A stretch of DNA of 59,682 bases, taken from assembly GCF_014284155.1 (NCBI RefSeq), contig NZ_JACOFZ010000013.1, forward strand, positions 1 to 59,682, written 5' to 3'. Position 1 is the first letter of the stretch. Each line of letters starts with the position of its first letter. Below are positions 15,203 through 40,529 of this stretch, piece by piece. Source of the DNA: Affinundibacterium nitidum. Its GTDB lineage: Bacteria; Pseudomonadota; Gammaproteobacteria; Burkholderiales; Burkholderiaceae_D. A model generated the notes under the pieces. It was not told the origin of the DNA, did not search any database, and saw nothing but the letters and a program-made list of their open reading frames with translations. Position numbers and translations under genes: made by a program.

Positions 15203-15778
15203 GTGATCAACGCGGCCATCAGCCATCTTGCAAACCAGCTTAACCAGCAATTCAGGAACAACTTCCATTTGGTTGAAGATGTGGCGGTGGTTTCTAATTT
15301 GGTCGAGCTTGATGGTACGCCAGCCCCGAATGCCAATAACAAACTTGTTCTAACTCTGGTCAACATCGAAAAAGATACGATGCCCCACAGACCTGGCAAC
15401 GGTCGCCGCAACGTCAGTGATGCTTTCCTCGTTCAAAGTAGCCCCTTATTCCTGAATCTATACGTAATGTTGTCCGCCAATTTCGGTGCGGACAACTACC
15501 CCGGTGCCCTTCGCACATTGTCACAGGCGATCAGTTTCTTTCAACAGCAACCAGTCTTTGATCGACAAAGTAGCCCCGGCTTAGACCCAAAAATAGATAA
15601 GCTCATTTTGGATATGGAGAACCTGAATATTCCTGATTTGAATAATTTGTGGAGCTTAATGGGGGGCAAATATCTACCTTCGGCTTACTACAAGGTCCGA
15701 ATGATTACCGTCGATGCGAGAGCAATTGTGGGTCAAGCCCCAATGATCTCGGCACCGGAACAAGGTCTTGGGCGGTAG
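15203..15778 (+). CDS. eCIS tail terminator (DUF4255, Afp16/Pvc16-like)
   Basis: A 191-residue protein with the DUF4255 / Pvc16 N-terminal fold: an initial helix INAAISHLANQLNQQF, then VVSNLVELDG, NKLVLTLVNIE, and a conserved PLFLNLYVMLSANF followed by ALRTLSQAISFFQQQPVF. In Afp and PVC particles the homologue caps the tube and sheath at the end opposite the baseplate and fixes tail length. The start is GTG with GGGGTGA in front. It is the first gene of the block, seven bases before the next. Confidence 0.85.
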   Translation: MINAAISHLANQLNQQFRNNFHLVEDVAVVSNLVELDGTPAPNANNKLVLTLVNIEKDTMPHRPGNGRRNVSDAFLVQSSPLFLNLYVMLSANFGADNYPGALRTLSQAISFFQQQPVFDRQSSPGLDPKIDKLILDMENLNIPDLNNLWSLMGGKYLPSAYYKVRMITVDARAIVGQAPMISAPEQGLGR

Positions 15779-15785
15779 CTGATCA

Positions 15786-16589
15786 ATGGCACGATACTTG
15801 CCACTGTTTGCACTTCATATCGATCACGAATTTTTTGGTGATGGAGAAAATGCGCAGGTCTTCACGCCTCAAATAGAAGCGAGTAAAGCTTGCGCCGCGA
15901 AGATGGAGAAAGAGAGTTTACTGGTACGCACTGTAACGGGTGGCATTGAAGTGTGGCAAGAACAACTCGAATGGCGTGATACAAGCGAAGTATTTGACTT
16001 TGAATTTCTGGTCAGTTCGTCAGATCCAAACATCGACACCTACACCGCTTGGGATATCGCTAAACCGATTTGTTATCAGCTTGTGCAACAAAATGCAGAG
16101 CAAACTATTTCCAGTTTCGTCGCCAAAAGCGCAGAAACCGAAGACTTCGGTTTAAGTAGTTTTGAACGTCAGCGTCGCCCGATTTTGTTCTCGGTAAAGC
16201 TACCACACGCGCTGACACCGAGCACTGTTGGAGATGTAAAGAAATATCAGATTCAGTTGCGCAGTAAGCATATGCATTGGAAATATTACTTTTCTGGTGC
16301 GTTAGCAAAGAAGAAGTTAGAAATTGTTGATCTCGATGCAAACTCAGAATCGGATTATCGTTTTATTCCGAGTCGACAGGTCGTAATTGAGAACAGCCTT
16401 GCTTTTGTTTCAGAGGTAAAGCTACCAATGAGAAGCATACCGCCACAACGCTTTCAGCTGCGTGAAGAGGATGCCAATGGCAGAGTTTTAATGAGGCGGT
16501 TGCCAAACGCTAGCATTGACAAAATTGGCAAAGAGAAGGGTCCGGACGGGCAGTCACTGGTCGTTGCGGAAATTTATATTCATCAATAA
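15786..16589 (+). CDS. eCIS-associated protein of unknown function
   Basis: A 267-residue soluble protein that I do not recognise from characterised particles. It lacks a signal peptide or membrane segment and looks beta-rich. Its position between the terminator and sheath genes, its tight spacing (7 bases before, 17 after) and its C-terminal LVVAEIYIHQ, which looks like a buried final strand, suggest a structural part such as a collar, cap adaptor or neck protein. That is inference from context. No catalytic motif is visible, which argues against an effector. Confidence 0.5.
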   Translation: MARYLPLFALHIDHEFFGDGENAQVFTPQIEASKACAAKMEKESLLVRTVTGGIEVWQEQLEWRDTSEVFDFEFLVSSSDPNIDTYTAWDIAKPICYQLVQQNAEQTISSFVAKSAETEDFGLSSFERQRRPILFSVKLPHALTPSTVGDVKKYQIQLRSKHMHWKYYFSGALAKKKLEIVDLDANSESDYRFIPSRQVVIENSLAFVSEVKLPMRSIPPQRFQLREEDANGRVLMRRLPNASIDKIGKEKGPDGQSLVVAEIYIHQ

Positions 16590-16606
16590 TTTTCAAAGGA
16601 ACACAT

Positions 16607-18124
16607 ATGGCTGGCGCGTATAAAACCCCCGGTGTCTATATCGTTGAAAAGAATGCCTTCCCGAATTCGGTTGTTGAAGTAGCGACCGCGGTTCCGGCAT
16701 TTGTGGGTTACACCAAAATTGCCGATAACAAAGGCACGTCTTTGCACGAAAAACCATGGCGCATTACTTCTTTATCAGAGTTCAAAAACTATTTTGGAGA
16801 AGAGCCGGACGACAAATTTGAGATCGCAGAGAAAGCTGATAAAGAACATGCTGATTTCAAATCTGGCGAAAAGGAATATGTGCTTAAGCGCCCGAACGGT
16901 AAAGCTGACACCAAACGCTATTACCTCTATCGCGCGATGCAATTATTCTTCCAAAATGGTGGTGGCCCATGCTACATCGTTTCTATTGGAACTTACAGTG
17001 ACCAAGGCGTCGAGCGCAAACCACTCGAAAAAGGTATCGATATGCTCTTGAAGGAGCAAGAACCAACGATGGTAGTGATTCCTGACGCCGTAGCACTAGA
17101 AGAAGGCGATTGCATCGGCGTACAACAGTACTCGCTAAAACACTGCGGCTACCAGATGAAGAACCGTTTCGCCATTTTGGATATTCACAATGGATTCAAG
17201 GAACGTTCAGACAACGACCCGGTCGCCGCTTTCCGAGGCGACCTTGGCACGAATTTCTTGAACTACTCTGCGGCATACTATCCTTGGTTGAATACATCGA
17301 TCGTACAAACTACGGACCTCGGCTTCTCTAGTTTTGTTGACGTTTCGAAAGTCAGCGAATTGTTGTTAGCAGAAGCTGGTGGCGAGAATGCGCCACAGGA
17401 TTTGAAAGACATCTTGGCTCAAGTTGGCAAAGCCGACCGCGATCCAAAAGCAAAGACCTACTTATCTGACGATGAGTTACACAAAATATTGTTCTCTGTC
17501 TGCCCAACTTATTCCAAAATGTTATTGGCAATCAAGAACAAACTCAACCTCTTGCCGCCAGCAGCAGCGATGGCAGGCGTGTACACGATGGTCGACAATG
17601 CACGCGGCGTATGGAAAGCACCAGCCAACGTTAGCTTGGCTTCCGTAATTTCTCCCGCGGTCAATATCACACACGACGAACAAGAAGACCTGAACGTCAC
17701 TACAGCTGGTAAATCGATCAATGCGATCCGCAGCTTCATCGGCGAAGGCACTTTAGTCTGGGGCGCTCGTACACTCGATGGTAACAGCCTCGACTGGCGT
17801 TACATCAACGTACGTCGCACTATGATCATGCTCGAAGAATCTCTGCGTTTGGCAACGAAAGCGTATGTGTTTGAACCAAACGTCAGCAGCACTTGGGTAA
17901 CTGTGAAGAGTATGGCTAGCAACTTCTTGACGAGCATCTGGAAGCGCGGTGGTTTAGCTGGAGCGAGCCCAGAAGATGCATTTAGCGTCAGCTGTGGTTT
18001 GGGTGAAACGATGACGGCTGAAGATATTCTCGAAGGCTACATGCGCGTCACTATTTTGGTTGCTTTGAGCCGCCCAGCGGAATTCATTGAAATCACGTTC
18101 CAACAACAAATGCAGAAGTCATAA
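16607..18124 (+). CDS. Contractile tail sheath protein
   Basis: A 505-residue sheath subunit. The N-terminal TPGVYIVEKN is the classic sheath opening whose arm joins the next subunit. The C-terminal domain has the usual INVRRTMIMLEESL and LTSIWKRGGLAG elements, then ILVALSRPAEFIEITFQQ, the strand that takes part in the inter-subunit handshake. The sheath stores the energy for contraction around the tube. AAAGGA precedes the ATG. Only one sheath gene is present in the locus, whereas Afp has three. The residue 300-320 region is helical and probably surface exposed. Confidence 0.95.
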   Translation: MAGAYKTPGVYIVEKNAFPNSVVEVATAVPAFVGYTKIADNKGTSLHEKPWRITSLSEFKNYFGEEPDDKFEIAEKADKEHADFKSGEKEYVLKRPNGKADTKRYYLYRAMQLFFQNGGGPCYIVSIGTYSDQGVERKPLEKGIDMLLKEQEPTMVVIPDAVALEEGDCIGVQQYSLKHCGYQMKNRFAILDIHNGFKERSDNDPVAAFRGDLGTNFLNYSAAYYPWLNTSIVQTTDLGFSSFVDVSKVSELLLAEAGGENAPQDLKDILAQVGKADRDPKAKTYLSDDELHKILFSVCPTYSKMLLAIKNKLNLLPPAAAMAGVYTMVDNARGVWKAPANVSLASVISPAVNITHDEQEDLNVTTAGKSINAIRSFIGEGTLVWGARTLDGNSLDWRYINVRRTMIMLEESLRLATKAYVFEPNVSSTWVTVKSMASNFLTSIWKRGGLAGASPEDAFSVSCGLGETMTAEDILEGYMRVTILVALSRPAEFIEITFQQQMQKS

Positions 18125-18130
18125 TCCGGC

Positions 18131-18145: not shown

Positions 18146-18207
18146 CTATAGGCAAAGACACTTTGTTCCGACAATTTTTAACTTATTTATTTTAGAAGAG
18201 GTTTGTT

Positions 18208-18666
18208 ATGGCAGATGACGGCTCAGCACAATCAAGCAACGTATGGCCTTTACCGAAGTTTTACTTCCGCGTGAAGTGGGACGCCAACGAAATGTCTTTC
18301 CAAGAAGTTTCGGGTCTCGATATTCAATCTGAAGAGATCAAATATCGTCATGGTAATAGCCCTGTTTTCTCAGTGATCAAAATGCCTGGTATGAAAAAGT
18401 ACGGCAATATCACAATGAAAAAAGGTGTATTCAAAGGCGACAATAAGTTCTGGGATTGGCTCAACCAGATCAAGATGAACACCATCAAACGTGTGCCTGT
18501 CACCATTAGTTTGCTTGACGAGCAAGGCAACGACACGATGGTATGGACTTTGACCAACGCATGGCCAACCAAAATTTCAAGTACAGACTTGAAATCTGAA
18601 GGCAATGAAGTCGCGATTGAGTCCATCGAAATCGTGCATGAAGGTTTAACGATCGACAATAAATAA
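18208..18666 (+). CDS. Tail tube protein 1 (T4 gp19 family, Afp1-like)
   Basis: A 152-residue inner-tube subunit. It opens with WPLPKFYFRVKW and carries the typical FQEVSGLDIQSEEIKYRHG, MKKYGNITMKKGVF, WDWLNQI and SEGNEVAIESIEIVHEGL elements of the gp19/Hcp fold, in which six copies form each tube ring. AGAAGAGG before the ATG is the strongest ribosome site in the block, fitting high demand for the main tube protein. The next tube gene follows after eight bases. Confidence 0.94.
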   Translation: MADDGSAQSSNVWPLPKFYFRVKWDANEMSFQEVSGLDIQSEEIKYRHGNSPVFSVIKMPGMKKYGNITMKKGVFKGDNKFWDWLNQIKMNTIKRVPVTISLLDEQGNDTMVWTLTNAWPTKISSTDLKSEGNEVAIESIEIVHEGLTIDNK

Positions 18667-18674
18667 TCAACACA

Positions 18675-19142
18675 ATGAGTGGTGAATATTTTGAGGGGGG
18701 TTATCCCCCTCCTGCGTTTTACTTTACCGTCACTTTTGGTGACGGCATGAAAGTGCCAGATGCTTCGTTCAGCGAAGTATCTGGCATTGGCATCGAAATG
18801 GAAACGGAATCGGTGGTCGAGGGCGGTGAGAATCGCTTCGTCCACCAACTTCCTAAAAGCATTAAACACCCGAATCTGGAATTGAAGCGTGGTATCTCTA
18901 CACTCAATTCACCGCTGGTGAAATGGTGTAAAGAGACCTTAGAAGGTGCTTTCATTAAAGCCATCGTTCCGCAAACAATTATTGTGAAACTCAATGGCGC
19001 TGAGGGCGAAGTTTTAAGGGCCTGGGCCTTCGTCGATGCTTATCCGATCAAGTGGGATGTAGAAGGATTCAACGCCACTAAAAATGAAGTGGCGATAGAA
19101 AAAATGACGTTTGCATACACGTATTCGAAACGTAGTAAGTAG
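18675..19142 (+). CDS. Tail tube protein 2 (T4 gp19 family, Afp5-like)
   Basis: A 155-residue paralogue of the preceding tube gene: FYFTVTFGDG, FSEVSGIGIEMETESVVEGG, LELKRGIST, KWCKETLEGAF and NATKNEVAIEKMTFAYTYS. In Afp and PVC the second tube protein forms the rings next to the baseplate and joins tube to spike, and the order here (tube 1, tube 2, then hub genes) supports the same role. The N-terminal FEGGYPPPAF is a distinctive Gly/Pro-rich arm. Confidence 0.9.
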   Translation: MSGEYFEGGYPPPAFYFTVTFGDGMKVPDASFSEVSGIGIEMETESVVEGGENRFVHQLPKSIKHPNLELKRGISTLNSPLVKWCKETLEGAFIKAIVPQTIIVKLNGAEGEVLRAWAFVDAYPIKWDVEGFNATKNEVAIEKMTFAYTYSKRSK

Positions 19143-19151
19143 GTTATAGCC

Positions 19152-19316
19152 ATGGCGATCGAGATCAAAGAACTTATCATCAAGACCAATATCGTAAGCC
19201 GCCCCGCGACATCGGAAGGCGAGACTTTGCTTGATCAACAGGCAATCAAAGAAGAAATTTTGGCTCAATGTAAGCAGATGGTACAAACCATGCTTCGTGA
19301 ACGGCGGGAGCGTTAA
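19152..19316 (+). CDS. Small DUF5908-type eCIS protein
   Basis: A 54-residue gene easily missed because of its length. It opens with MAIEIKELIIKTNIVS, then a short acidic linker and a charged helix ending in RERRER. This is the pattern of the DUF5908 small proteins found next to tube and LysM genes in many contractile injection loci. It lies 9 bases after the tube gene and 2 before the LysM gene, so it is surely co-translated. The role is not established; an adaptor or chaperone between tube and hub is plausible. Confidence 0.75.
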   Translation: MAIEIKELIIKTNIVSRPATSEGETLLDQQAIKEEILAQCKQMVQTMLRERRER

Positions 19317-19318
19317 TC

Positions 19319-19996
19319 GTGTCCGGTCAAAAGACTCTACTGAAAATTTCAGGCTGCAGTGTTGCCAAAAATGGGGCAATCAGCGTCGACGCTTCACGTC
19401 CAGTATTTCAAGCCTTGATGAATCCCAGCGGATACGGCCATGACTTCTCGATCAAATACGCTAAAAATCAAGCCCTAGGTCAAGCAGGAAATGAATCAAA
19501 ATTCCATGCCAGTCAACCAGAAAAACTGAGTTTGAAAGAACTGGTGCTTGATGGTACTGGCGTGGTGCCTGGCACGACCAAAACGGTCAAACAACAGGTT
19601 GAAGAATTACGCAACGCCGTATATACCTACGTCGGCACAAAACATGAAGCCCCTATTGTGCAGGTCGTGTGGGGTAGCTTGATTTTTTATGGCCGTGTTG
19701 AGGGGCTCAAATTTGACTACACACTATTCAAGCCCAATGGTGAACCGCTACGCGCCAAGATATCTCTTAATTTCGTTGAATACACCAGCGCCGCTGAAAT
19801 CGTCAAGGAAGAGAGCCGAAGTTCTCCAGACCTGACTCATCTAGTTGTTGTGAAAGCGGGAGATACCCTGCCCTTACTCTGCGATCGCATCTATCGCGAT
19901 AGCAACTACTATATGGAAGTGGCACGTATCAATGGCCTAAGTTCTTTCCGTCATCTTGAACTCGGCATGACACTGCGCTTCCCACCTTTAGCCTAA
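19319..19996 (+). CDS. LysM-containing baseplate hub adaptor (Afp7/gp53-like)
   Basis: A 225-residue protein that joins tube to spike in the baseplate. The first 160 residues form a tube-like beta domain (FQALMNPSGYGHDFSIKYAKN; VWGSLIFYGRVEGLKFDYTLF; RAKISLNFVEYTS). Residues about 175-225 form a LysM domain: HLVVVKAGDTLPLLCDRIY, then YYMEVARINGLSSFR and the closing LRFPPLA. In Afp7/Pvc7 the LysM module mediates contacts inside the baseplate rather than binding cell wall. The start is GTG, supported by GGGAG upstream. Confidence 0.9.
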   Translation: MSGQKTLLKISGCSVAKNGAISVDASRPVFQALMNPSGYGHDFSIKYAKNQALGQAGNESKFHASQPEKLSLKELVLDGTGVVPGTTKTVKQQVEELRNAVYTYVGTKHEAPIVQVVWGSLIFYGRVEGLKFDYTLFKPNGEPLRAKISLNFVEYTSAAEIVKEESRSSPDLTHLVVVKAGDTLPLLCDRIYRDSNYYMEVARINGLSSFRHLELGMTLRFPPLA

Positions 19997-20014: not shown

Positions 20015-21805
20015 ATGGCAATCTCTCCTCTAAACGATAGTTCTGGCGTATTAAGTTTCACAGTCACCTGTGATGGCTCACCTATGCCCGATATCGTTCA
20101 GGTCGTCTCTATCGAAACCGTTCATAGTTTTAACCGCATTCCCAGTGCCATCATTACGCTACTCGATGGTGATATGCCGAACGGAGAATTCCCAGTTGCT
20201 GACACTGGCAATTTCAAGCCTGGGGTAAAGGTGGTGATTAGTGCGGGTTACGATAGCGTCGTGACGCCTATCTTTACTGGCGTGGTGATTAAACACTCAG
20301 TCAAAATCACTGGCGATAATTACGCTCGGTTAGTGATCGAGTGCCGAGATCCTGCCTTAGCCATGACCGTAGGACGGAAAAATGCGAACTATGTTGATAA
20401 GAAAGATAGCGACATCATTACCAGCATTATCGGCACCTACTCCGGACTCACTGCTAACGTCACTGCAACGACCGTGACTTACAAGGAGCTTGTCCAATAT
20501 TACGCCACGGATTGGGATTACGTAATGGCACGAGCTGAGATTAATGGCTTCTTGGTGAATATCGATGCAGGGACAGTCAATGTTAAAGCACCTGATACGA
20601 GTGGCAGCCCAGTGTTGACCCTCACCTATGGTAAAGATCTCATGGAGTTTCATGCCGATCTCGATGCTCGTTGGCAGCTAAGCTCAGTTTCCAGCACCAG
20701 TTGGGACCTGACTACTTTAAAAACGGTGGAAGCGAGTGCTGCCAGTATGCCGCTGACTGGACAAGGTGATATTAATTCAAGTACCTTAGCCCAAGTATTA
20801 GGCCTAAGCCAATTCGGGCTGCAAACAGCCGCACCACTAGAAATGGGTGCCCTGACAGCTTGGAGTAAAGCACAGCAGTTGAAAGCAGCGCTCTCGCGCA
20901 TTCAAGGGCGCATGCAATTCCAGGGTAGCGCGTTAGCAAAACCTGGCGCCATTCTCGAACTCGCAGCGGTTGGCAAACACTTTAACGGTAACGTCATCGC
21001 CAGCCAAGTCACACATAAAATCCAAGATGGTAACTGGACGACTGAAGTCGAATTCGGCATGCCAAGCTATTGGTTCACTGAAGAGCACGCACTACAAGCG
21101 CCCGAAGCAGCTGGCGTCACCGCAGGGATTAACGGCTTACACATTGGTATCGTGTTGAAACTCGATGCTGATCCCGAGGGGCAATACAAAATCAAGGTCG
21201 AAGTGCCTTTAATGAAAGCAGAGACAGTAGGCGTATGGGCGCGCCTGGCAAATTTCTATGCATCTTCTAGCTTTGGCAGCTTCATCATTCCTGAGATTGG
21301 CGATGAAGTTGTGCTCGGTTTCTTCAACAACGATCCTTCCTGTCCAGTCATTTTGGGTAGCTTGTATAGCAGCAAGCATTCGCCGGCCTATGAACTCACG
21401 GCTGAGAACAATATTAAAGCGCTAGTCACGCGTAGCAAGCTCAAAATGGAATACGACGATGGGAAGAAAATCATCACATTGATCACGCCTGCCAACAATA
21501 AAATTGTGATCAGTGATCAGGACAAGTCGATTCTCTTACAGGATCAGAACAATAATAAGGTCGAATTGAGCCCCTCTGGTATTTTGCTAGACAGCCCCAA
21601 AGACATCACTATCAAAGCCATGGGCAAAGTGGCCATCACAGCGACACAGAATGTTGAGGTCACAGCACAGATGGACGTCAAAACGACAGGGCTCAATATT
21701 ACCAACACCGCCAATGTCGGCTTTACCGCCAAGGGAACCGCTACAGCCGAGCTGTCTGCCGCTGGGCAAACAACGGTAAAAGGCGCCATGGTCATGATTA
21801 ACTAA
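20015..21805 (+). CDS. VgrG-like central spike (Afp8/Pvc8-like)
   Basis: A 596-residue spike protein combining gp27-like hub and gp5-like needle parts. The N-terminal half has the hub fold (SFNRIPSAIITLLDGD; DWDYVMARAEINGFLV). An OB-fold follows near residue 375 (GLHIGIVLKLDADPEG; VWARLANFYASSSFGS; IPEIGDEVVLGFFNNDPSCPVILGSLYSS). The C-terminal stretch of short repeating strands (IVISDQDKSILLQDQ onward) is typical of the trimeric beta-helix needle. It has no C-terminal toxin extension; the PAAR tip is a separate gene 12 bases downstream. Confidence 0.93.
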   Translation: MAISPLNDSSGVLSFTVTCDGSPMPDIVQVVSIETVHSFNRIPSAIITLLDGDMPNGEFPVADTGNFKPGVKVVISAGYDSVVTPIFTGVVIKHSVKITGDNYARLVIECRDPALAMTVGRKNANYVDKKDSDIITSIIGTYSGLTANVTATTVTYKELVQYYATDWDYVMARAEINGFLVNIDAGTVNVKAPDTSGSPVLTLTYGKDLMEFHADLDARWQLSSVSSTSWDLTTLKTVEASAASMPLTGQGDINSSTLAQVLGLSQFGLQTAAPLEMGALTAWSKAQQLKAALSRIQGRMQFQGSALAKPGAILELAAVGKHFNGNVIASQVTHKIQDGNWTTEVEFGMPSYWFTEEHALQAPEAAGVTAGINGLHIGIVLKLDADPEGQYKIKVEVPLMKAETVGVWARLANFYASSSFGSFIIPEIGDEVVLGFFNNDPSCPVILGSLYSSKHSPAYELTAENNIKALVTRSKLKMEYDDGKKIITLITPANNKIVISDQDKSILLQDQNNNKVELSPSGILLDSPKDITIKAMGKVAITATQNVEVTAQMDVKTTGLNITNTANVGFTAKGTATAELSAAGQTTVKGAMVMIN

Positions 21806-21817: not shown

Positions 21818-22117
21818 ATGCCACCTGCTTCCCGAATCACTGACATGCACGTTTGCCCTATGGTCACGCCAGGCTTACCACCGATCCCGCACGTCGGCGG
21901 CCCGATCTCTGGTCCTTGCGTACCAAACGTACTGATCGGTAGTTTACCTGCGGCAGTGCTCGGCGACATGTGTGTTTGTGTTGGCCCTCCCGATAGCATA
22001 GTCAAAGGCAGTGCGACCGTATTAATTGGCGGTAAACCAGCGGCACGCATCGGAGATACCACGGCACATGGTGGCAATATCGTATTGGGTTTCCCCACTG
22101 TCATGATTGGTGGTTGA
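21818..22117 (+). CDS. PAAR-domain spike-tip protein
   Basis: A 99-residue protein made entirely of a PAAR domain: the start MPPASRITDMHVCPM, the Pro/Gly-rich VLIGSLPAAVLGDMC and VLIGGKPAARIGDTTAHGG repeats, and closing VMIGG. His and Cys residues are placed as in the zinc site that sharpens the cone. It caps the VgrG-like needle. Such proteins can carry effectors as extensions; this one has none. Confidence 0.93.
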   Translation: MPPASRITDMHVCPMVTPGLPPIPHVGGPISGPCVPNVLIGSLPAAVLGDMCVCVGPPDSIVKGSATVLIGGKPAARIGDTTAHGGNIVLGFPTVMIGG

Positions 22118-22144: not shown

Positions 22145-22558
22145 GTGGATAAAGATATTTCATTTCTCGGCACAGGTTGGAGCTTTCCGCCTGAGTTTAG
22201 CAAGCGAGGCACCGTGCAGATGGTCAGCGCTGGGGAGGATATTCACCAAAGTCTAGGTATCATCCTCGCGACCAACCTTGGTGAACGCGTGATGCAACCG
22301 AGTTTTGGGTGTGGCATCAAAAGTCAGGTCTATGAAAATATCAACGAAAGCACAATGACTGTCTTAAAGGATTTGATCAGTCGTGCGATTCTATTTTACG
22401 AACCTAGGGTGAAATTAGAAGCAATTAATATGGACACTTCGTCTGCCTATGAAGGCAGACTCGACTTTCATATCATCTACAATATCATCGCCACCAATAC
22501 GCGACACAACATCGTCTACCCTTACTATTTGCGTGAGGGTACCGATGTTCAAATTTAG
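22145..22558 (+). CDS. Baseplate wedge protein (gp25-like, Afp9-like)
   Basis: A 137-residue protein of the gp25/Afp9 family, which templates the first sheath ring on the baseplate. Visible elements are WSFPPEF, EDIHQSLGIILATNLGERVMQPSFGCGIKS, in which Glu-Arg is the conserved EPR-like sheath-initiation feature, and the final beta strand region FHIIYNIIATNTRHNIVYPYY. The start is GTG at 22145. It is 28 bases after the PAAR gene. Confidence 0.93.
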   Translation: MDKDISFLGTGWSFPPEFSKRGTVQMVSAGEDIHQSLGIILATNLGERVMQPSFGCGIKSQVYENINESTMTVLKDLISRAILFYEPRVKLEAINMDTSSAYEGRLDFHIIYNIIATNTRHNIVYPYYLREGTDVQI

Positions 22559-25500: not shown

Positions 25501-26389
25501 CAGCATATCGCGAAGCCGCAGTCCGATCGCAGGGTTAAACGGTGTACTCCAAGTTCGCAGTAGCTTTAATGGCAAAGTAGCGGAGAGCAAAACGCAATTT
25601 CGTACTCGGGCCAGTGAACGTTTACGCCACAAGAATCGAGCGTTGACGGCAAAAGACTACGAAGCACTAATTCTTGAACAATTTCCGCAAGTATACAAAG
25701 TCAAATGCTTTTCGCATCTGACTTCGGAACAGAATCCGCAACACCGCATTCAACCAGGACATTTGTTGATCGTACCAGTCCCCCACCTGAACCAAGGTGG
25801 GCATGGCAATCAAAAACCTAACCTGAGTGGACATCTGATTCACGAGATTCAACAATATATACAGCAATTTGCTGCTGCCGATGTCAGTATTAGCGTCGAG
25901 AATCCGGTCTACGAAGAAGTTCAAGTACGTTGTACGGTGAAATTGAAAACGCCATTTGGTGCGGCTCGTATCAATAGTCAAATGAGCGGCCGCTATATCG
26001 AGCAGATCAACCAAGCTATATGCGAATATTTATCACCATGGAATCAACGGGGCTTAAATCATCACTTTGGTTGGTCCGTGCAACAACATAACGTCGTCTC
26101 TTTCCTACATGACCTCGATTACATCGAAGAAGTCACGGGCGTTTCTCTGTTGCAGGTATCGCCATTAGGTGACGTCAGCGATTTGCGCTTCGTACTGAAC
26201 GACAATGCGAAAGCAGATCGTTTGCAGAAAGATTTATCACCCAGTTATCCATGGAGTATTGCTGTTCCTATGCAAGAGCATTGGATCGTTGTCGCCGACC
26301 AGTTTGAGCAAAAACCGGCGAAGGCAATTGGCATTAACGAACTCAAAGTCGGCTCTACTTTCATTATTCCGGCAAGGAAACCAACATGA
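22577..26389 (+). CDS. Baseplate J-like wedge protein (gp6-like, Afp11-like)
   Basis: A 1270-residue protein that with the gp25-like and Afp12-like proteins builds the baseplate wedges. The baseplate J signature lies in the last third: FRTRASERLRHKNRALTAKDYEALILEQFP, KVKCFSH and the strand-rich tail FGWSVQQHNVVSFLHDLDYIEEVTGV. The long N-terminal part (residues 1-900) is the extension typical of extracellular systems and is much longer than phage gpJ. Its stop overlaps the next start by four bases, indicating translational coupling. Confidence 0.88.
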   Translation: MKSQWMISDGLAQHQRQLPALSGDYFQLDELRFEQLLTLANEYARLMHFHQLDLSIEGNWQQFFSADESILMATILALDTQKLTERFEKRLSTQPNYRDWFRDDIVRKIDLSYRDQIDSPLMILRLLDQWLRALSTQQSAVALELRKLLEGILRGLKWEVQALCDATPRLLQPYTQRLCSTSFNALVDWPLPRAADPAKKTDDRQEQVLHGDAKSFRHSEVRHNFHTLNQAIRILQKGVTQLLPSSLTSGKHDPAISLLLGFAQMYQGLQRRLNRFADKHIDFYYQDVLGMQQKAQQADSAYLVMQTSPNARQVLVNKGAEFVAGLDTDLKEIIYTADENAQLNNARVSSLHTIYFHRHHQETRLLRTQAGYYHQIEVLPDNAEAGAHEKLPPVPLMGAPKPGEHLPAVSAARFGFAIASHTLLMQEGERHIKLMLKLRHNTRYTIESSLKEIAEQLQQKHKGERDQASALRLSDVFVKLMRSMFKVSITTATGWLVVPEYRPEYRGLNPELVENCLAIHIVLPASAPAIVGFDAKLHGQDFQTQTPVLLFEMNRNEYAYPYEVLTHWLLEEVDLEVEVKSCRQLVLHNQIGQVSALAPFTPFGPLPDLSSYLILGCEEVLGKQLRDASIDIEWAGLPNSLGGFPEYYRGYTEPLRADAVKVKLSVLVDGKWSKTSANLPLFAYENKEDGSPSNQVMQENRISLSSVISLYKPTRASHLPQDGLKFSYTSGTMNGMFKLSLDEPVGAFGHQEFPQLLTRVLTQNAQKKKVGLMTPQPNPPYTPQISRIVFNYKAYSTINFDQTRADANTESNEQFLHLHPMGTKVMRASESKMIPLVAHYPAAGNLMIGLQGDKLGGPLSLYFYLREDSLPMNKAAPTGLQWWYLSSNRWKRLQQANILDDSTHSFMTSGIVQLNLPDDINKEHTVMPSDQFWIGVTAERGIERFCSLYGVFAQAIKVSWSTHEGQKPEPVLPALSISRSRSPIAGLNGVLQVRSSFNGKVAESKTQFRTRASERLRHKNRALTAKDYEALILEQFPQVYKVKCFSHLTSEQNPQHRIQPGHLLIVPVPHLNQGGHGNQKPNLSGHLIHEIQQYIQQFAAADVSISVENPVYEEVQVRCTVKLKTPFGAARINSQMSGRYIEQINQAICEYLSPWNQRGLNHHFGWSVQQHNVVSFLHDLDYIEEVTGVSLLQVSPLGDVSDLRFVLNDNAKADRLQKDLSPSYPWSIAVPMQEHWIVVADQFEQKPAKAIGINELKVGSTFIIPARKPT

Positions 26390-33000: not shown

Positions 33001-35771
33001 CTGAGGCCTTCTTACACAGTGTAGAGAAGCACGCGCTCAGAGCGTCAAATCCACGGCAATTTCTGCATCTAAGTTTGCAGTGCTTGGTGTCGGATCAAGA
33101 GATCGATTTGGAAGAAATGTTGTTTCGCGATCAGTTCAAAACAGATACGAAAAGAGATACAACCAGCTCCGCTAGAAATCTCCTCCAAAAACTGGAAGAA
33201 TTACTTGCAGTCAGCAAAGTTGATGATGCCGCCGATCAGCATTTCCGAGCATGGATGCGCTTCCTGCAACAAGATAACGTGCGTCGATACTTAGATTTGT
33301 ATTTGAGTGATGTTATACAGCGCGTCCAAACCTCAAGTTTGTCATTCTCCGAGTTGCAGCGATCGATCATCGCTCAAGAGACGCGAGCCCATCTGATGCA
33401 GGCAAGTCCAATTCAGATTCTCGCTCTGTTACGTGCAGTCGTCCAGTATGAAGCTCAGCACCAAACGGAAGTCGTCGCTCCACTATTGCTGAGTCACTTT
33501 GGCCTTACTCCAGATTTACTCCCCTACTTACTTGAAGACACCGACAATCGCCGGGCGCTAAAGCAAGCCCTCGAGTTAGGTTTGGATCGCACCGACCAAA
33601 CAAAACAAGTACATGCGCCCAATACGACGATGCAGGGGAAAGACGCTACTACATCAATACATTCGCCACTACCGAAGGGCTGGCGTGAAGCCTTGCCACA
33701 ACTACTTGCGGAAGCTTTTCTTGCGGCTAATTTGAACAAACTTGACCTCGTGTGGCAGGAATTAACTCGTCACCATCAGCAAGACCTACTGCAAGCGCAG
33801 AAGCGTTATTTACATCAGACGAATACTAGAGATCGTTTATTGCGATCCGAGTCGCATGAAAAATTACTTGATTTGGTCGCTGCATTTTCATTGCCTGTAA
33901 AGGAGCTGCTGATCGATCTGCGTGCCGCTGGCAGCAGCATGATCAAAATATGGAGACTCAGCCTATCAGAGGAACAACTATTTTCTGCACTCCTCAACAA
34001 GACCTATCATGAGCTGTTCACCACACAGCTCGTACAAAAGACAACAGCACAGCATCTCGTTCACCTTCTACAGGCGATGCGCTTCTGGCCTAAAGAAACT
34101 CAGACTCAAGCACTTTATTTACGTGCGCTGTACTTCAGTTTAGGCGATAGCAAAACTTCACTTCTCTATGAAAGCTTAGGCTCGCTTTGCCATCAAGATA
34201 GAGTAGCTTCCTTACTTACGATATCCAAAGCCCAGTATGACGATCACGATGCCTCATTTAAGCAGATTGAAGATAGCAAAATCTCGAATCAGATCTTAAC
34301 GAGTACTTTGATCGACGGTGACAATACAGCACCAACACAAAATTTATTCACCTCACCTTGGGAGGCTTTGGAGGCGACATTCCAGGCTGAACTGGAAACA
34401 ACATCACTGCTACAAACCCAATCCTTTTCTGTCGATAGTCTACTCAATCAAGCGGTTGCTGCAATCTCATCTTCGTTTGATGCGGATGCTCGTACCCTGA
34501 TGTGGAGCAAACTCGCTAAGTACTTGAGTAGTGAAGAGGAAACGGTGGATAACACAGAGGCTGGTTTGTATCTGGCCGAGCAAATGAGGTCCCTCAGAGA
34601 AAAACGAGAAGCGCAAGGTGATCCGAGTGCAGCTGATAGTGCCCTCACAGTAGACGCTACCGCACCAAATTCGCAGCTGGAACGCTTAGCTATTCTGTTA
34701 CGCAGTAATGCTCCATTACTGCAAACTGAAAAGCTTTGGATACGCCTTTGCATCGAGCACATAATAAGTTCCTCAGCTCAAGTGCTACACCGCCTTGAAA
34801 AATTATTGTCAGAAAAAGCAGTTATTGAACGCCTGGTCGAAGCTGTAGACACCGTCAATTTGGAGTTTCTTTTCCATCGATGTCATCCGCGACTCCATCA
34901 GCATGTCCACGCCTTGTGTCGCGCGATCGAAGAGACGCAACAGTGGAAGTTATACGAAGCGAATGGCTTTCTCAGTACACAAGCATGGCGGGCGATTTAC
35001 TGGGCTATGAAGGAACCGGGAGCAAGCCAGTCTGCGCTATCTTTCAGCAAAGGCGTGTTAAACACATTGAGTGAGAACGATGATGCGGCTAACACAAATA
35101 CTGAAGGGCTCGACACCAAGCAGCGACTGCGTGATCTGCTTGCTTATGCAAAAGAACAAAGGGCGCAGGAAATTCGCAAACGCTTAGCTGAAGAAGAGGA
35201 AAAGAAACGGGCGCTACAATCAATCAAAAAGAAAGCGCGCCTGTTAGGCGAGGAAGAAGAAATACCATATGGCGAAAGCAATGTTCTCAATGCTGGCATG
35301 GTCATCATCGCACCGTATATTCAGCGCCTGTTCAACATCCTCGAGCTGACACGCGATGGGACCTTTGTCAACGATGGTGCAGCCGAGCGAGCAGTCCATA
35401 TTTTGCAATACGTAGTCACTGGAGAACAGGCTACACCTGAATATCGCTTAGCACTAAACAAGCTCTTATGTGGCATACATGGCGGCGTCCCTATTATTGC
35501 AAGTATCGACATCACGGATCACGAGATAAATGTTACAGAACAAATGTTAATGGGCGTGATTGCCAATTGGAGTGCATTAGGTAAGACCTCAATTGCTGGC
35601 TTGCGCCAAACTTTCTTGGTGCGCGAAGGCCAGCTGAGTTTCGTCGACGAAAGCTGGCAACTCAGAATACCAAGTTCAAGTTTTGACATGTTACTCGACA
35701 GACTACCGTGGAGTTTCGCCATGATCAAATTTCCTTGGATGCGCGCTCCTTTACACGTCACTTGGCGTTAA
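30033..35771 (+). CDS. Giant CIS tape-measure-family protein (Afp14-like)
   Basis: A 1912-residue helical protein. It has the N- and C-terminal signatures of the contractile injection system tape-measure family: ITRIQKLEL-like HHIARIQKLELDLGDVSVEM with RRLRAQLSAALFEQL near residue 60, and NAGMVIIAPYIQRLFNILEL with VHILQYVVTGEQ and YRLALNKLLCGI near the end. Between them are many degenerate helical modules, and around residues 1700-1740 a strongly charged coil (QRAQEIRKRLAEEEEKKRAL). In Afp14 the homologue is thought to set tail length from inside the tube. At 1912 residues it is far longer than Afp14. Confidence 0.8.
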   Translation: MTTHAIHALTFDLSVDTTDRDGARYAHWIQSMLLPIIDEVVAQQALQANIDQHHIARIQKLELDLGDVSVEMSEMEIGRRLRAQLSAALFEQLGLNRQAKERVAEEMDESQNELLQFLKEGRISWEKSGNSRHGHKSLVQEAINSPRFTELLDGLSRQPQQLLRLVRQFDHSDLFLLLRQKMRTWANEEKELCLDWLSLELSMHDQKPSYIENLWLFMFQRDTSNRSRFNELSKDWYQQLGQDPAKTMSDYETTIDQAQTLTRLGRLGEQECKETLRKLHQHLKVYEPKRSNQPTAVDLAVDSLQSIFSALNTNDFASLRTHWSAILYHLPQTLRSLHQSHWPSWLHHLDTVSALELVSVLQPQCQWVVEKLVAQAKTKSSPDEYQALVQYALPMPADSLNATDLISVWEEALQSPLALRLLNNQLQAFAIEFAEEHRHAPATNAQLTQNQTQAVSDELIQAEASRAEIKQAIAQFGNRQCERLASSVDNATLLKWSSLLLPHLNALLTDLFGNKQTIATILGVKESDLLNLVWRNALAHNQEFVSAQHMLTAVLQLNKVHQHFDDETRRQQAMIANLQTALTSTSQQFKETLNNLQLASPTPLTESAKTILASIKQFQNLSASERLDLVAKLNLEQKLAIVDTLRPDLAKVLRELVRHPELLREWLRSALPNIDSSTLELQHGLLHYVLAHPTQQRRHIGRSNIREEITSALASVTRLNNNSINEAFELAPSSSLEERLRKALPTVLPIVQSSGLDRASSRINDHSDINTTNRDFDSLVKPQVRPQLLRDFRDWQQGRLSLQELALEVQELRQVLQWWVNQASNLTDELRASFLDQAFNACDRCYSPTRLLESILETVRSRMDLSISELEELLAWELNTQQQASRIDQLRSQSPSNLSASEFDFLLDDEFIVPNNKAQTAAAGTDSDRALEVDLARIEQEWATGISWLDIKKSIQALLFSANAEQLHVDDLHRLLKLYGQRAMQAHEYAEAFLHSVEKHALRASNPRQFLHLSLQCLVSDQEIDLEEMLFRDQFKTDTKRDTTSSARNLLQKLEELLAVSKVDDAADQHFRAWMRFLQQDNVRRYLDLYLSDVIQRVQTSSLSFSELQRSIIAQETRAHLMQASPIQILALLRAVVQYEAQHQTEVVAPLLLSHFGLTPDLLPYLLEDTDNRRALKQALELGLDRTDQTKQVHAPNTTMQGKDATTSIHSPLPKGWREALPQLLAEAFLAANLNKLDLVWQELTRHHQQDLLQAQKRYLHQTNTRDRLLRSESHEKLLDLVAAFSLPVKELLIDLRAAGSSMIKIWRLSLSEEQLFSALLNKTYHELFTTQLVQKTTAQHLVHLLQAMRFWPKETQTQALYLRALYFSLGDSKTSLLYESLGSLCHQDRVASLLTISKAQYDDHDASFKQIEDSKISNQILTSTLIDGDNTAPTQNLFTSPWEALEATFQAELETTSLLQTQSFSVDSLLNQAVAAISSSFDADARTLMWSKLAKYLSSEEETVDNTEAGLYLAEQMRSLREKREAQGDPSAADSALTVDATAPNSQLERLAILLRSNAPLLQTEKLWIRLCIEHIISSSAQVLHRLEKLLSEKAVIERLVEAVDTVNLEFLFHRCHPRLHQHVHALCRAIEETQQWKLYEANGFLSTQAWRAIYWAMKEPGASQSALSFSKGVLNTLSENDDAANTNTEGLDTKQRLRDLLAYAKEQRAQEIRKRLAEEEEKKRALQSIKKKARLLGEEEEIPYGESNVLNAGMVIIAPYIQRLFNILELTRDGTFVNDGAAERAVHILQYVVTGEQATPEYRLALNKLLCGIHGGVPIIASIDITDHEINVTEQMLMGVIANWSALGKTSIAGLRQTFLVREGQLSFVDESWQLRIPSSSFDMLLDRLPWSFAMIKFPWMRAPLHVTWR

Positions 35772-35790: not shown

Positions 35791-37140
35791 ATGAATAACA
35801 CCATCATCGATACCAGCGCACTAGAACAAGAAATCACTTGGCTTACCAATGTGTGTGAGCGACGTTTCGAATCTTACTTTCAGCATAATGAACAAGATGT
35901 TGATCTGTCCGAGCTATGTCCAGCTCCCAAACTCGATCCAGCACAGAGCCCCTACGCCAAAGTGGTTAGCGACTATAGTTTTGGCTTCTCGGAACGCATC
36001 GTATTAATGCTGGCACTGATGCCACATATTCGACCACAAGTCCTCGATTTGTTTTCATTGCAAAATGCTGCACTCGGTCGAGCATATAGTGAAATTGGTG
36101 GTTGGCGAGGAAAGTCACATATAGGCTTCTTGCCTACGTGCGAAACGGCATCCTTTATTTTAGCTGGCAGCAATTTAAGTAAACGCTTCGCGGTTGCACG
36201 TCTGTTTAAGGAAGGGCACACCCTGATTCGTAACGGCATCATCAAACTAGACCAACAAGCCAGTGGAGAACCCATCTTCAGTGCCACGCTGCAGCTGAGC
36301 CATGAATTTTTACAGTTGCTAGCTGATGGTGAAGTCCACAAGCCAGACTTTAGTGCAAACTTTCCGGCCAAGTTAATGCAAACCCAGCTTTCTTGGTCTG
36401 ACCTTGTTTTGAATCCAGAGGTCATGGACGAAGTCAACAATATCGTCACCTGGCTGCGCCAACCTCAAGAAATTTTGCGTAACTGGGGATTGGAAAAATC
36501 TCTCAAGCCTGGCTATCGCGCTATGTTTTATGGCCCCCCTGGTACAGGTAAAACACTTACGGCCAGTCTCATCGGGAAAGCGCTCGCACTCGACGTCTAT
36601 CGTATCGACCTGTCGATGGTGGTATCAAAATATATAGGGGAGACCGAAAAAAATCTTGCCGGGGTATTTGATCAAGCGCAGAACAAGAATTGGATACTTT
36701 TTTTCGATGAAGCTGATTCACTATTTGGCAAACGTAATCAGGCAAGTAGTTCGAACGATAGGCATGCAAATCAAGAGATTTCTTACCTCTTGCAGCGCGT
36801 TGAAGACTTCCCTGGCGTCGTTATTCTGGCGACTAATCTTAAGGCAAATATCGACGCCGCATTTGCGCGACGCTTCCAGAGCGAAGTGTATTTCGCGATG
36901 CCCGATGCAATTCAACGAGAACGTCTATGGAAAGGTTTATTCGCCAACACTGACAAACTCGACAAAGACGTCAATTTTCGCGAAATCGCGGAACGCTATG
37001 AGCTCGCTGGCGGTGCCTTATTGAATGTTGCACGCTATGCCGCCATTCGCGCAGTAAAAAATCAACGCAATTTGATTACACAAGATGATTTGCTTGCCGG
37101 TATCGGCAGAGAATTAATGAAGGATGGGAAAACACTGTGA
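35791..37140 (+). CDS. AAA+ ATPase of the eCIS (Afp15/Pvc15-like)
   Basis: A 449-residue cytoplasmic AAA+ protein. The C-terminal half is a single AAA module: Walker A GPPGTGKT at 248-255, Walker B ILFFDEAD at about 302-309, sensor 1 LATN at 346-349 and arginine fingers ARRF at 359-362. The N-terminal 210 residues are the family-specific substrate-recognition part. In PVC the homologue is needed for effector loading or late assembly, so its presence implies cargo even though none is seen here. Its last codons overlap the next start (GTGA), meaning translational coupling. Confidence 0.93.
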   Translation: MNNTIIDTSALEQEITWLTNVCERRFESYFQHNEQDVDLSELCPAPKLDPAQSPYAKVVSDYSFGFSERIVLMLALMPHIRPQVLDLFSLQNAALGRAYSEIGGWRGKSHIGFLPTCETASFILAGSNLSKRFAVARLFKEGHTLIRNGIIKLDQQASGEPIFSATLQLSHEFLQLLADGEVHKPDFSANFPAKLMQTQLSWSDLVLNPEVMDEVNNIVTWLRQPQEILRNWGLEKSLKPGYRAMFYGPPGTGKTLTASLIGKALALDVYRIDLSMVVSKYIGETEKNLAGVFDQAQNKNWILFFDEADSLFGKRNQASSSNDRHANQEISYLLQRVEDFPGVVILATNLKANIDAAFARRFQSEVYFAMPDAIQRERLWKGLFANTDKLDKDVNFREIAERYELAGGALLNVARYAAIRAVKNQRNLITQDDLLAGIGRELMKDGKTL

Positions 37141-40100
37141 AACGATTACTCAAGTTCAATTCCAACTCGCTTGCATTGGCATGCCTATTGGCCAGTACCT
37201 TGCTCTGCACAAGCCAAGCCTATGCTGCGCAAATCGAAATCACCACTGCGGCGAGTGGCGCAGCCAGCTCAAGCAAGGCGAGCAGCAGCAGCGCTGCCGG
37301 AACGTCTAGTGCAGATGGCGATGCTAAACCTAAAGCAAAAGCTGTTAGCAGCCGCACCGTCAACATCGTGGGCTATAACCGCAATATCAAACAAGAACAC
37401 TTCAAGGGTCTGAGCAAAGAAGTCGTCTTGAAAATGCAAAAACAGCTCGAGTCTATTTATCGTTTACTCCCAGATTGGCAACATGATTATGCGCTCAAAG
37501 GTGATCCGCTCAATGACGGCATCGTGGGCCCGATCACGCTCTCATGGTTACAACGCTTTGGCTTCAGTTTTAAGGTCATTACCGAAGGCGACTATGCTGA
37601 GAAGCTCGCGCAAAACGTTGATCGTATAGCTCTATTTGCTGCCAAACATAAGGATGAACTTACGATTTTGATGAGCCCAGAGTTTGAAGCATGGGACTTC
37701 ATGCAAAACGAAAAACAAAAACAGGCGGATTTCCAAGTGCGACGTCAAGGCAGCGATAAGGAATTGATCGACTTAGTCAATCGTTTCCGCGGTCAGCGAA
37801 AAACAGCACCACGTGCCGCACCAAAACCAGTGCTCGACGAAAGCGCCTTTTTCTACTACAAGCTGAATCAAAACGACCTCGATATTTTAGGCGGGAAGGA
37901 CCAGGTAGTACAGATTCTGACTACACTCAAAGACAAAGAATTCAACTCGAGTGAAGCTCTTCGTGTTGCGGTGAAACAGGCGCTTGGTGGACGCGATCAT
38001 TTGGTCAATCAAATTTGGCCGCTGATCGAACGCAATGCTGCTGATTTTGATGGCTTCCTTATTAATGAAGCGGCATTACAAAGACTCAAAGAAACCAGCG
38101 AATTTCCAACGGCTGTAATTGATGAATTGCGCTTACAAGGTACTGTCTACTTCAAAACTCGTGAATTATTCGATTCCTTTATGACCGAAAAATTTGCAAG
38201 TGAAACACTATTACTGACAGAAGACGATCGTGAAGCAGTGGCCGAAGCATCACGCGTGTTTGATAACATCCACCTTACCGCGCAAGCCATCGCAAACATC
38301 AAGGTTCAGTTAAAGGGACAAGTGCAAAATACCGGCATCCCCGCTGTCCTAGTTCGCCTACTGGGGGAGATTAAAGACGTCAGCTACCCTGAAATTAGTT
38401 TGCTTCGGCACGCAGCGATATCGAAAATGATTATGGGTATCGGTGCTTGCAAGATGAATTCACCGACTAGCAATCCCTATGTTGCGAGCCTGCGCATGCC
38501 CGACGAGGAGTTTGAGCTATTGGTCAAAGATATCTCTGCACTGCAGCCCCAAACTATAGACGGCAAAGTCGACCTCACTTTTGACCTGAAGAAAGCCTTT
38601 GACGAACTTCGTCGGCTGCGCTTGCAAGTCAGTCAATGCGACAAGCCAACCTTACAAAACAGTCGGCGCTTGATCTCCGACATCTATCTCAATTATCTGG
38701 CGATTGCGATTGAAAATATGGCCAAGAAGCGCATCCCAGATGAGATTGCACCGATCACACTAAAGGGCGGAGATTGCGGCTGTGCACTCGATGATTTTGC
38801 GGGTGTTGTATATGGTTTCTATCCGTATTGGAATAATCTAAAAACACCGCAAACCATGAACTTTCATGTGCTCAATCGCGTTGCCTACTACGGCTTGAGC
38901 GTGGACAACGTGGGTGACCTGCGACTAGGCCAAGTACCATTTGATGTCAAAGACGGGTCTGCTGAACAAAATCAATTCATTCGTCTTGCGCATCAATACA
39001 ATTCAAAAGTCGATTGGTTGATCCAAAAGAATGATTGGAATGGAGATTGGAAGCGCTATTCACGTGAGAACAAACAAGCTGTGTTGAGGAAGTTGGTTAG
39101 CAACATCAGTCACTTATTGCGTACTCGTTTGAACGATACAGGATCGCGCCTCCGTCCTATTTTCACACTAGGTATGTCGGCACCAATGACGCGTGGCGAT
39201 GGAGTATCAATATACTTCCAGAATTATCCAAATGATGCGGATTCAGCCTTATTGTTTAATGAATTCTTTATGACGCTTCGTAAAGAACTGGCCAAGGACA
39301 AAGTCTGGATCAACATCGTGGTGGCACAAGACGTATTAAACGATGAATCTGATGGCAAGCAAGGCGCATTTTCACTTTCAAATCTCATCAAACTCAAAAA
39401 GATCGCGCCTCAGCAGGGAACCACAGTTAATCGAGAAGCGATCGATGAATATTTACTGATCTTGCTCAACGAACCGAGTACAGATGCTAAAAAACAGTTG
39501 CGCGCTAACATTGAAAGTGAACCTGGCTTGCATGGAAATGCACGCGCGGAATTCTTACGTAGCGTGGTTCCTGTGATGCAGTTCGATAATCATAACTGGC
39601 AGCAGTTCGAAGACGACGTGGTATACGCCAGCGATAATTTTGGTGGTATCGGTTTATGGGCGCCCGATTTCGACAATATCGCGATCTCAAGCACTAACCT
39701 CAACGAGTCGTGCTATCGCGGCAAGCAAATCTCACTCTGTATTTTGCGTAATTTCCGTGATTCCAATCAAGTTGGCAATTTACCTTCTCCGCTTGCGCGT
39801 TTCGCCTGTGTTAATCGATGGTATTTACAGCTGGCATTAACAGCATTCCTACTGATCGCCATCGTGCTCGCCTTTTTGTTTGCGAAGTACTGTGAAGTGC
39901 AAACACTCGTCAAACGCTATTTCTTGTGGGTATTGGCTTTTAATGTTGTGCCACCCTTGCTGATCTTTTTGCTCTTACTGTTCTATGATCCCTACCTCAC
40001 CAGTCTTTCAAAGGGAAACCTACCTTTTATCGTTGCGATAGGTATTATTTTCTTCGGCATTATTGCAGGCTATTTATATCTGCGTTCTCAACGCGATCTG

Positions 40101-40529
40101 CCACAACGTCAACGTGCACTACCGCAACGTCAAGGCTTGGGCTTTCCTATCATAGGTTGGACCATCGAGATCGATGAGCATGGCTTCCGCTGGCTCATTC
40201 GTAATCGAGGAACAGGCTACGGTATTATCAAGAAGATTGAAATTTTACTTGATGGCCAAGCGGTGGCAGACGCCAAGACAGCACTGGAAGCGGTCTTAGG
40301 CCCAGATAAAAACTTAGTCTGGAAGAGCTTGCCTTTGGTTGGGCAAAAAGTCATGCCTGGCGAAACAGTGATTGGCATTTCCATCACTGACCCAGATTCC
40401 GCATTGGCCTTTGATAAGAAGCTCCGTGATCATCAACTTCAAGTGATGATTACTTATTTCTCAGCCAATAATGAGCACTGGATTAGCGATGGTAAAGAGG
40501 TTTCCGCTATTGGTGCTGCGTCTTACTAA
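37137..40529 (+). CDS. Exported membrane-anchored GH18-like protein coupled to the eCIS
   Basis: An 1130-residue envelope protein of unknown function. It starts at a GTG inside the ATPase stop. Domains in order: signal peptide (about 1-30, ending AYAAQ); Ser/Ala linker (37-65); a peptidoglycan-binding-like helical unit (about 85-145, DPLNDGIVGPITLSWLQRFG); a long helical region; a GH18-like barrel from about 555 (VVYGFYPYW; LNRVAYYGLSVD); three membrane segments at about 895-915, 927-947 and 960-980; and a soluble C-terminal domain (about 1010-1130). Where GH18 enzymes have DxxDxDxE, this has GDGVSIYFQNYP (about 686-697), so the acid/base Glu seems to be Gln. Predicted topology puts the large domain in the periplasm and the tail in the cytoplasm. 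It may anchor or release particles. Confidence 0.7.
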   Translation: MKRLLKFNSNSLALACLLASTLLCTSQAYAAQIEITTAASGAASSSKASSSSAAGTSSADGDAKPKAKAVSSRTVNIVGYNRNIKQEHFKGLSKEVVLKMQKQLESIYRLLPDWQHDYALKGDPLNDGIVGPITLSWLQRFGFSFKVITEGDYAEKLAQNVDRIALFAAKHKDELTILMSPEFEAWDFMQNEKQKQADFQVRRQGSDKELIDLVNRFRGQRKTAPRAAPKPVLDESAFFYYKLNQNDLDILGGKDQVVQILTTLKDKEFNSSEALRVAVKQALGGRDHLVNQIWPLIERNAADFDGFLINEAALQRLKETSEFPTAVIDELRLQGTVYFKTRELFDSFMTEKFASETLLLTEDDREAVAEASRVFDNIHLTAQAIANIKVQLKGQVQNTGIPAVLVRLLGEIKDVSYPEISLLRHAAISKMIMGIGACKMNSPTSNPYVASLRMPDEEFELLVKDISALQPQTIDGKVDLTFDLKKAFDELRRLRLQVSQCDKPTLQNSRRLISDIYLNYLAIAIENMAKKRIPDEIAPITLKGGDCGCALDDFAGVVYGFYPYWNNLKTPQTMNFHVLNRVAYYGLSVDNVGDLRLGQVPFDVKDGSAEQNQFIRLAHQYNSKVDWLIQKNDWNGDWKRYSRENKQAVLRKLVSNISHLLRTRLNDTGSRLRPIFTLGMSAPMTRGDGVSIYFQNYPNDADSALLFNEFFMTLRKELAKDKVWINIVVAQDVLNDESDGKQGAFSLSNLIKLKKIAPQQGTTVNREAIDEYLLILLNEPSTDAKKQLRANIESEPGLHGNARAEFLRSVVPVMQFDNHNWQQFEDDVVYASDNFGGIGLWAPDFDNIAISSTNLNESCYRGKQISLCILRNFRDSNQVGNLPSPLARFACVNRWYLQLALTAFLLIAIVLAFLFAKYCEVQTLVKRYFLWVLAFNVVPPLLIFLLLLFYDPYLTSLSKGNLPFIVAIGIIFFGIIAGYLYLRSQRDLPQRQRALPQRQGLGFPIIGWTIEIDEHGFRWLIRNRGTGYGIIKKIEILLDGQAVADAKTALEAVLGPDKNLVWKSLPLVGQKVMPGETVIGISITDPDSALAFDKKLRDHQLQVMITYFSANNEHWISDGKEVSAIGAASY

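Follow-up and report, generated by a model that had tools for sequence, protein, structure and literature searches.

A contractile injection system operon of Affinundibacterium nitidum that ends in a gene for a predicted chitinase-fold envelope protein

Contractile injection systems (CIS) may act outside the cell, at the membrane of the producer or inside the producer, and for most lineages the site of action is open. This question is raised by an operon of 17 tightly spaced plus-strand genes (15203-40529) encoding a full CIS on a contig of Affinundibacterium nitidum (NZ_JACOFZ010000013.1), which at its entire length of 59,682 bp is referred to below as the window. A first-pass annotation made from the sequence had described the locus as a complete extracellular CIS (eCIS). 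The locus encodes a complete CIS that belongs to the eCIS superfamily and to the lineage of AlgoCIS, the thylakoid CIS (tCIS) and SalCIS, while the word extracellular was an assumption and is unsupported, since the last gene of the operon (37137-40529) encodes a predicted envelope protein of 1130 residues, u1130, that goes with this CIS clade, which makes action at the membrane of the producer itself no less likely than action outside the cell.

Lineage of the injection system

Pvc16_N, CIS_tube, CIS_TMP, an AAA+ ATPase and Afp12 were encoded alongside sheath, tube and baseplate, as in the eCIS superfamily, and the two-part cap included the Cis16B component that marks the lineage. The lineage assignment follows from a ranking of solved structures and from a sheath tree. 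Sheath, spike, baseplate J and Afp12 all ranked 9r9h/9rce (taken as SalCIS from common entries and chain names) above AlgoCIS or the Anabaena CIS, and these above PVC and Afp. The sheath (505 residues, 16607-18124; E 7e-194 against the 9r9h sheath) was the sole PF04984 match in its own genome and scored 648 bits against SalCIS, 375 against 7adz (AlgoCIS) and 340 against All3325 (Anabaena), with 26.0 bits against R-pyocin and 25.6 bits against T4 gp18. In the tree the window and four syntenic proteobacterial loci grouped with the sheaths of Parabacteroides, Persicobacter and Aureibacter (100/99), while Afp-type sheaths and three long-branched phage sheaths stood apart; the tree, built from 24 rows that do not include the AlgoCIS, tCIS and SalCIS sequences themselves, leaves forks open and has long branches for the phages.

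On the concern of the first-pass annotation that the sheath might fall among tailed-phage or R-pyocin sheaths, its separation from the three phage sheaths and the score of about 26 bits with R-pyocin speak for a CIS. A defective prophage tail or R-type tailocin would have sheath, tube and baseplate ancestry in common with phage tails, and 190 phage records did match the sheath, but none of the 190 covered 80% of it in one place and the Streptomyces phages listed reached 33-35% identity across 39% of its length. Such an origin is very improbable given these coverages, the full set of Pvc16_N, CIS_tube, CIS_TMP and AAA+ genes and the position of the sheath in the tree. A search confined to two type VI families, TssK (PF05936) and TssC/VipB (PF05943), gave no match in the genome of the window; the search control comprised 14 genomes, and E. 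coli was positive for both families. The single sheath and separate PAAR tip, previously regarded as distinctive, look ordinary for a lineage whose SalCIS, AlgoCIS and Anabaena members supplied the best sheath and spike matches.

Architecture of the last gene product

Fold prediction and sequence comparison suggest that u1130 is an envelope protein with a worn-out (pseudo-enzyme) chitinase fold. It would comprise a signal peptide (called by eye), a peptidoglycan-binding-like N-terminal region, a GH18 chitinase-like TIM barrel at about residues 550-877, three predicted transmembrane helices at 894-987 and a C-terminal extension. An invariant proline lies just past the helices and is followed by about 140 further residues in this genus and in Solimicrobium. 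Active GH18 enzymes carry the catalytic motif DxxDxDxE. The u1130 of the window reads DGVSIYFQ at this place, with Gln695 and Tyr693 at the positions of the catalytic acids, a reading that argues against an active enzyme. Among 83 members the Glu was kept in 15, an Asp stood at the column of residue 693 in 5 and both acids were present in a single one. The match of u1130 to PDB 9r9a was weak at 52 bits, and in neither of two fold searches made with u1130 did 9r9a appear among the top 50 rows.

Distribution and linkage of u1130

In the sampled genomes u1130 was found in 16 of the 36 with a CIS cap gene and in none of the 383 without one. All six occurrences among 274 genomes of the class fell within the 19 with Pvc16_N (Fisher 5e-8), and all eleven among 146 genomes of the family fell within the 18 with Pvc16_N (Fisher 3e-12), figures that treat genomes as independent, which related genomes are not. 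The class survey was a single-sequence search, which distant members may escape, and the family survey was a profile search. In 10 of the 11 family genomes, including that of the window, a single contig carries both the cap gene and u1130, at a distance of 23-27 kb; in G278 the two are on separate contigs.

The occurrence of u1130 followed the sheath clade. Sheath identity was at least 59% in every piece in 15 of the 16 genomes with u1130, the exception being G128, whose operon is truncated where the contig ends (locus L042 begins within the tape-measure gene). None of the 20 cap genomes without u1130 reached 59%; the best full-length value was 53% (G327, G310), and G069 showed 58% over the C-terminal 191 residues and 38% ahead of these.

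A scan of named genomes with one peptide pattern returned 100 relatives, 80 of which underlie the counts given here, and family members lacking the pattern went unseen because the pattern was a single one. The relatives included Undibacterium, Solimicrobium, Nitrosomonas, Herbaspirillum, Collimonas, Pandoraea, Duganella and Massilia, several Gamma- and Alphaproteobacteria and four Nitrospirota-type metagenome-assembled genomes. A CIS ATPase was encoded near u1130 in 73 of the 80, and of the seven others five begin at a contig edge and two are shortened orphans (L091, L103). The CIS loci of Aureibacter and Persicobacter contained GH18-annotated genes whose products have hydrophobic segments at both termini and end in a proline. 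A tblastn search of the plasmid collection holding the records of these two genera gave no match to u1130, and what places the Bacteroidota proteins in the family is their CIS setting, their Pfam GH18 match, the hydrophobic segments and the proline rather than a direct match. The Persicobacter protein reads DGLNIDFE and, judged from this motif, may be active.

Proposed role of u1130 and alternatives

We favour a role for u1130 in docking or licensing the particle at the inner membrane, CisA-like in function, and consider the chances of this to be about even. It is preferred over a release factor because the catalytic residues are replaced, the C-terminal end is conserved and the partnership with the CIS is fixed. 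In this scheme a sheath-tube-baseplate CIS with its two-part cap would be assembled, probably with the AAA+ ATPase aiding cargo loading, and u1130 would be exported by way of its signal peptide. The peptidoglycan-binding-like region and the acid-less GH18-like barrel would then lie in the periplasm against the wall, with the three helices spanning the inner membrane and the end bearing the invariant proline facing the cytoplasm. Either the membrane domain or this cytoplasmic end may capture the baseplate or the tail fibre there, and firing could be permitted or triggered when stress on the envelope or damage to the wall is sensed on the outer side.

The broader proposal is put forward tentatively, with odds somewhat short of even: by means of a dedicated one-protein envelope anchor of chitinase fold, the clade may dock and fire at the inner membrane of its producer, as a third membrane-anchored mode of CIS. 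Such a mode would join two others, the type VI trans-envelope complex and the thylakoid fibre anchor. Judged by the names of the sequence records, the clade extends over Alpha-, Beta- and Gammaproteobacteria and Nitrospirota, and Bacteroidota have similar gene sets.

Several observations weigh against docking. A tail fibre and eCIS_core-like cargo open reading frames (ORFs), the latter in 46 of 80 relatives, are typical of released particles. The signal peptide of the window protein falls short of the hydropathy cut-off used, PG_binding_1 was listed in 5 of 44 members, this protein not being one of them, and in the 13 members that extend past the invariant proline the aligner may have chosen that proline. 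Within the genus the fibre was 85% identical to that of G426 and, in two pieces, 81 and 90% identical to that of G420, against 61-62% for baseplate J; this conservation lends docking little weight because it drops to 35-38% towards the four distant genomes G242, G071, G201 and G206, like baseplate J (30-37%) and far under the sheath (60-65%). Hub, sheath and tube were conserved as well as or better than the fibre. Linkage as such cannot separate docking from release or self-protection.

The Persicobacter GH18 protein with its apparently intact catalytic motif suits wall cutting in that organism and, with the fibre and the cargo genes seen in relatives, fits a classical released eCIS in which u1130 would be a wall-remodelling factor opening the producer for particle escape. 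We regard this as unlikely, at about one chance in four, as the window reads Gln695 and Tyr693, the Glu, the Asp and both acids being kept in 15, 5 and 1 of the 83 members, and a lysin needs neither three transmembrane helices nor a conserved end. A still less likely explanation is that u1130 is an envelope protein for self-protection or cargo handling, outside docking and release. The eCIS_core-like ORFs that often follow u1130 in relatives speak for it, but u1130 is far steadier than the cargo, occurring with its own sheath clade in 15 of 16 genomes, and the only eCIS_core match of the genome sits on another contig.

Genomic site and candidate cargo

The window and the same-genus genomes G420 and G426 carry the operon at one and the same site, between a UvrD-type helicase gene and a pirin gene. 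In the congener G428 these two genes are adjacent, about 130 bases apart, and the operon is absent from this gap. The helicase-pirin span of the window is 12948-41128, and no integrase was found among the window proteins scanned. Four of eight same-genus genomes held u1130.

The sole eCIS_core match in the genome was a 451-residue protein on contig C65 (L130:8448-9803) with a sub-threshold Endonuclea_NS_2 match, followed by a gene for a 224-residue WHH/colicin-DNase-like nuclease protein (L130:9845-10519). No immunity gene was recognised by eye beside this pair, which, if it is cargo, is supplied in trans. The counts of eCIS_core-like ORFs in relatives refer to the examined stretch and to a profile built from three sequences, and in L094-L097 the hits lay upstream.

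Genes of the operon and its flanks

A Pfam scan covered 16 operon products, the 54-residue Afp6-like product being outside it, and 27 other window proteins; two overlapping minus-strand ORFs (51352-51931) and shorter ORFs lay outside the flank scan. Eleven of the 16 operon proteins matched families of contractile systems or AAA+ ATPases at E <1e-5, namely Pvc16_N, the sheath C-terminal domain, two gp19-type tubes, CIS_tube, spike OB, PAAR, gp25, baseplate J, CIS_TMP and AAA+. No Pfam match was obtained for the 267-, 272- and 97-residue, Afp12-like and 1130-residue products. The core parts listed in the first-pass annotation were all confirmed in frame, and either passed the curated Pfam cut-off or matched solved CIS subunits.

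The cap is encoded by a Pvc16_N/Cis16A-type tail terminator (191 residues, 15203-15778; PF14065 E 5.5e-37) and by a Cis16B-type adaptor (267 residues, 15786-16589). The adaptor was recognised with a five-sequence profile, A3, which matched 9r9n_C 'SalCis16b - cap' at E 1.5e-14 and, weakly, All3326 at E 0.001. Behind the sheath are inner tube 1 (18208-18666; PF06841 E 1e-48) and inner tube 2 or initiator (18675-19142; PF06841 E 7e-37), followed by the Afp6/DUF5908-like gene of 54 codons (19152-19319), which is conserved in place and sequence in relatives and without which the earlier count of 17 genes would not hold. An annotated DUF5908 gene likewise precedes the hub gene in an Aureibacter CIS locus. 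The 225-residue hub (19319-19996; PF19266 E 6.3e-41) was formerly described as a LysM hub; a CIS_tube hub it is, but no LysM domain was listed in the Pfam scan. The VgrG-like spike (596 residues, 20015-21805; 9rce_F E 4e-168, All3320 E 1e-152), the PAAR tip (99 residues, 21818-22117; PF05488 E 1.5e-23) and a gp25-like sheath initiator or baseplate wedge (22145-22558; PF04965 E 3.3e-22) come next. Baseplate J, or Cis11 (1270 residues, 22577-26389; 9rce_A E 5e-115, All3317 E 6e-94, 7aeb E 3e-88), is of the long form, the chains matched measuring 1323, 1231 and 1050 residues.

Four genes had earlier been left without a clear role, and of these the 97-residue product alone remains, as the 267-residue protein matched a cap protein, the 272-residue protein matched tail fibres and the 1130-residue protein is the predicted envelope protein. 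The 272-residue short tail fibre (26386-27204) has an N-terminal baseplate anchor of Cis13 type and beta domains, its end being weakly T4 gp9-like, and contained no hydrophobic segment (highest 19-residue hydropathy 0.61). Single-sequence PDB searches with the 267- and 272-residue proteins gave no match, and profiles were required. The 97-residue protein (27206-27499), an ORF with two similar halves by eye, had no Pfam, PHROG or NCBIfam match; some of the relatives had a recognisable counterpart (Nitrosomonas, Herbaspirillum, Pandoraea and others), but none was recognised in G242, G071, G201 and G206. The start of the Afp12/Cis12 baseplate gene was moved to 27492 (844 residues, 27492-30026; 9rce_B 'SalCis12' E 1.7e-60, Algo12 E 6e-57) because the longer frame from 27420 (868 residues) extends back into the 97-residue gene, and the later start is most likely correct. 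The tape-measure protein (1912 residues, 30033-35771; PF19268 E 3.7e-85, best stretch 1573-1911) and the AAA+ ATPase, of Pvc15 type by place and class (35791-37140; PF00004 E 8e-29), precede u1130.

Within the genus (L142-L145) the cap adaptor was 44-45% and the tape measure, in pieces, 30-42% identical, against 95-96% for tube 1. Second sheaths were present in two family genomes already carrying the operon (G405:C12:178399-179970, 46%; G380:C3:186578-188134, 45%). A Parabacteroides distasonis plasmid (L133:571-4462) encoded DUF4255, a sheath and two tube-type genes, and the rest of the operon was absent from the stretch shown.

A terminator-like stem-loop with a 13-pair stem and a T run follows the operon (40570-40601, plus strand). 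A promoter scan upstream of the operon did no better than shuffles, no tRNA was found and Rfam gave no match at gathering thresholds. Cellular Pfam families were matched by 22 of the 27 flanking proteins and nothing by the other five. A bactofilin-like protein encoded at 54529-55575 also matches FapA. For the 16 operon and 27 flanking proteins the Pfam scan listed no family of capsid, portal, terminase, holin or endolysin proteins, in agreement with the earlier statement that phage capsid, portal, terminase and lysis genes are lacking. Nothing lies just outside the window because it is the whole contig. The conserved neighbour genes suggest a chromosomal location for the operon, and a chance arrangement is excluded because the gene order is kept in relatives.

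Comparison with known systems

The CIS belongs to a known lineage, and its envelope partner is, as far as the searches tell, undescribed in the open-access literature searched. The available portions of papers on contractile injection with GH18 or chitinase contained no envelope partner like u1130, and those of PMC12923769 and PMC8213781 no description of a u1130-like protein, the latter listing the Dickeya eCIS-associated toxin EAT3 as 'Chitinase?'. PMC12998442 concerns a different CIS. No Undibacterium eCIS paper was found in the open-access literature, nor one on SalCIS under these names or codes. A description of the partner may exist elsewhere because PDB 9r9a is a solved u1130 homologue.

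Among solved structures SalCIS (PDB 9r9h, 9r9i, 9r9n, 9rce and possibly 9r9a, whose membership is suggested by neighbouring codes alone) ranked first with the sheath, the spike, baseplate J, Afp12 and the cap adaptor. AlgoCIS of Algoriphagus came second or third with all of these but the adaptor (with the window sheath it scored 375 bits and SalCIS 648) and has a cap adaptor Alg16B, Alg19 tail fibres, a caged baseplate and a PAAR-like Alg10 (PMC13314943). Afp and PVC are alike in overall gene set and have several sheaths (Afp2-4, Pvc2-4), and the Afp-type sheaths of Serratia and Mycetohabitans lie apart from the window in the tree. A cargo-loading role is described for the Pvc15 ATPase (PMC11495950).

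The thylakoid CIS of Anabaena (All33xx) resembles the present system in its two-part cap Cis16A/B, in a fibre N-terminus like that of the 272-residue protein and in its membrane-anchored mode. Its anchor is described as a transmembrane helix within the fibre Cis13 (PMC8894136), whereas the 272-residue fibre has no such helix and the predicted helices here are in a separate protein. CisA of Streptomyces is described as an operon-linked membrane protein required for contraction (PMC12237407), bitopic and with a periplasmic-binding-like domain. For u1130, operon linkage and hydrophobic segments were observed, and its make-up is a different one, GH18-like with three predicted helices. A single envelope protein paired with one sheath clade offers a direct genetic handle on docking, firing and release, and it also suggests that the label 'extracellular' may be wrong for some loci.

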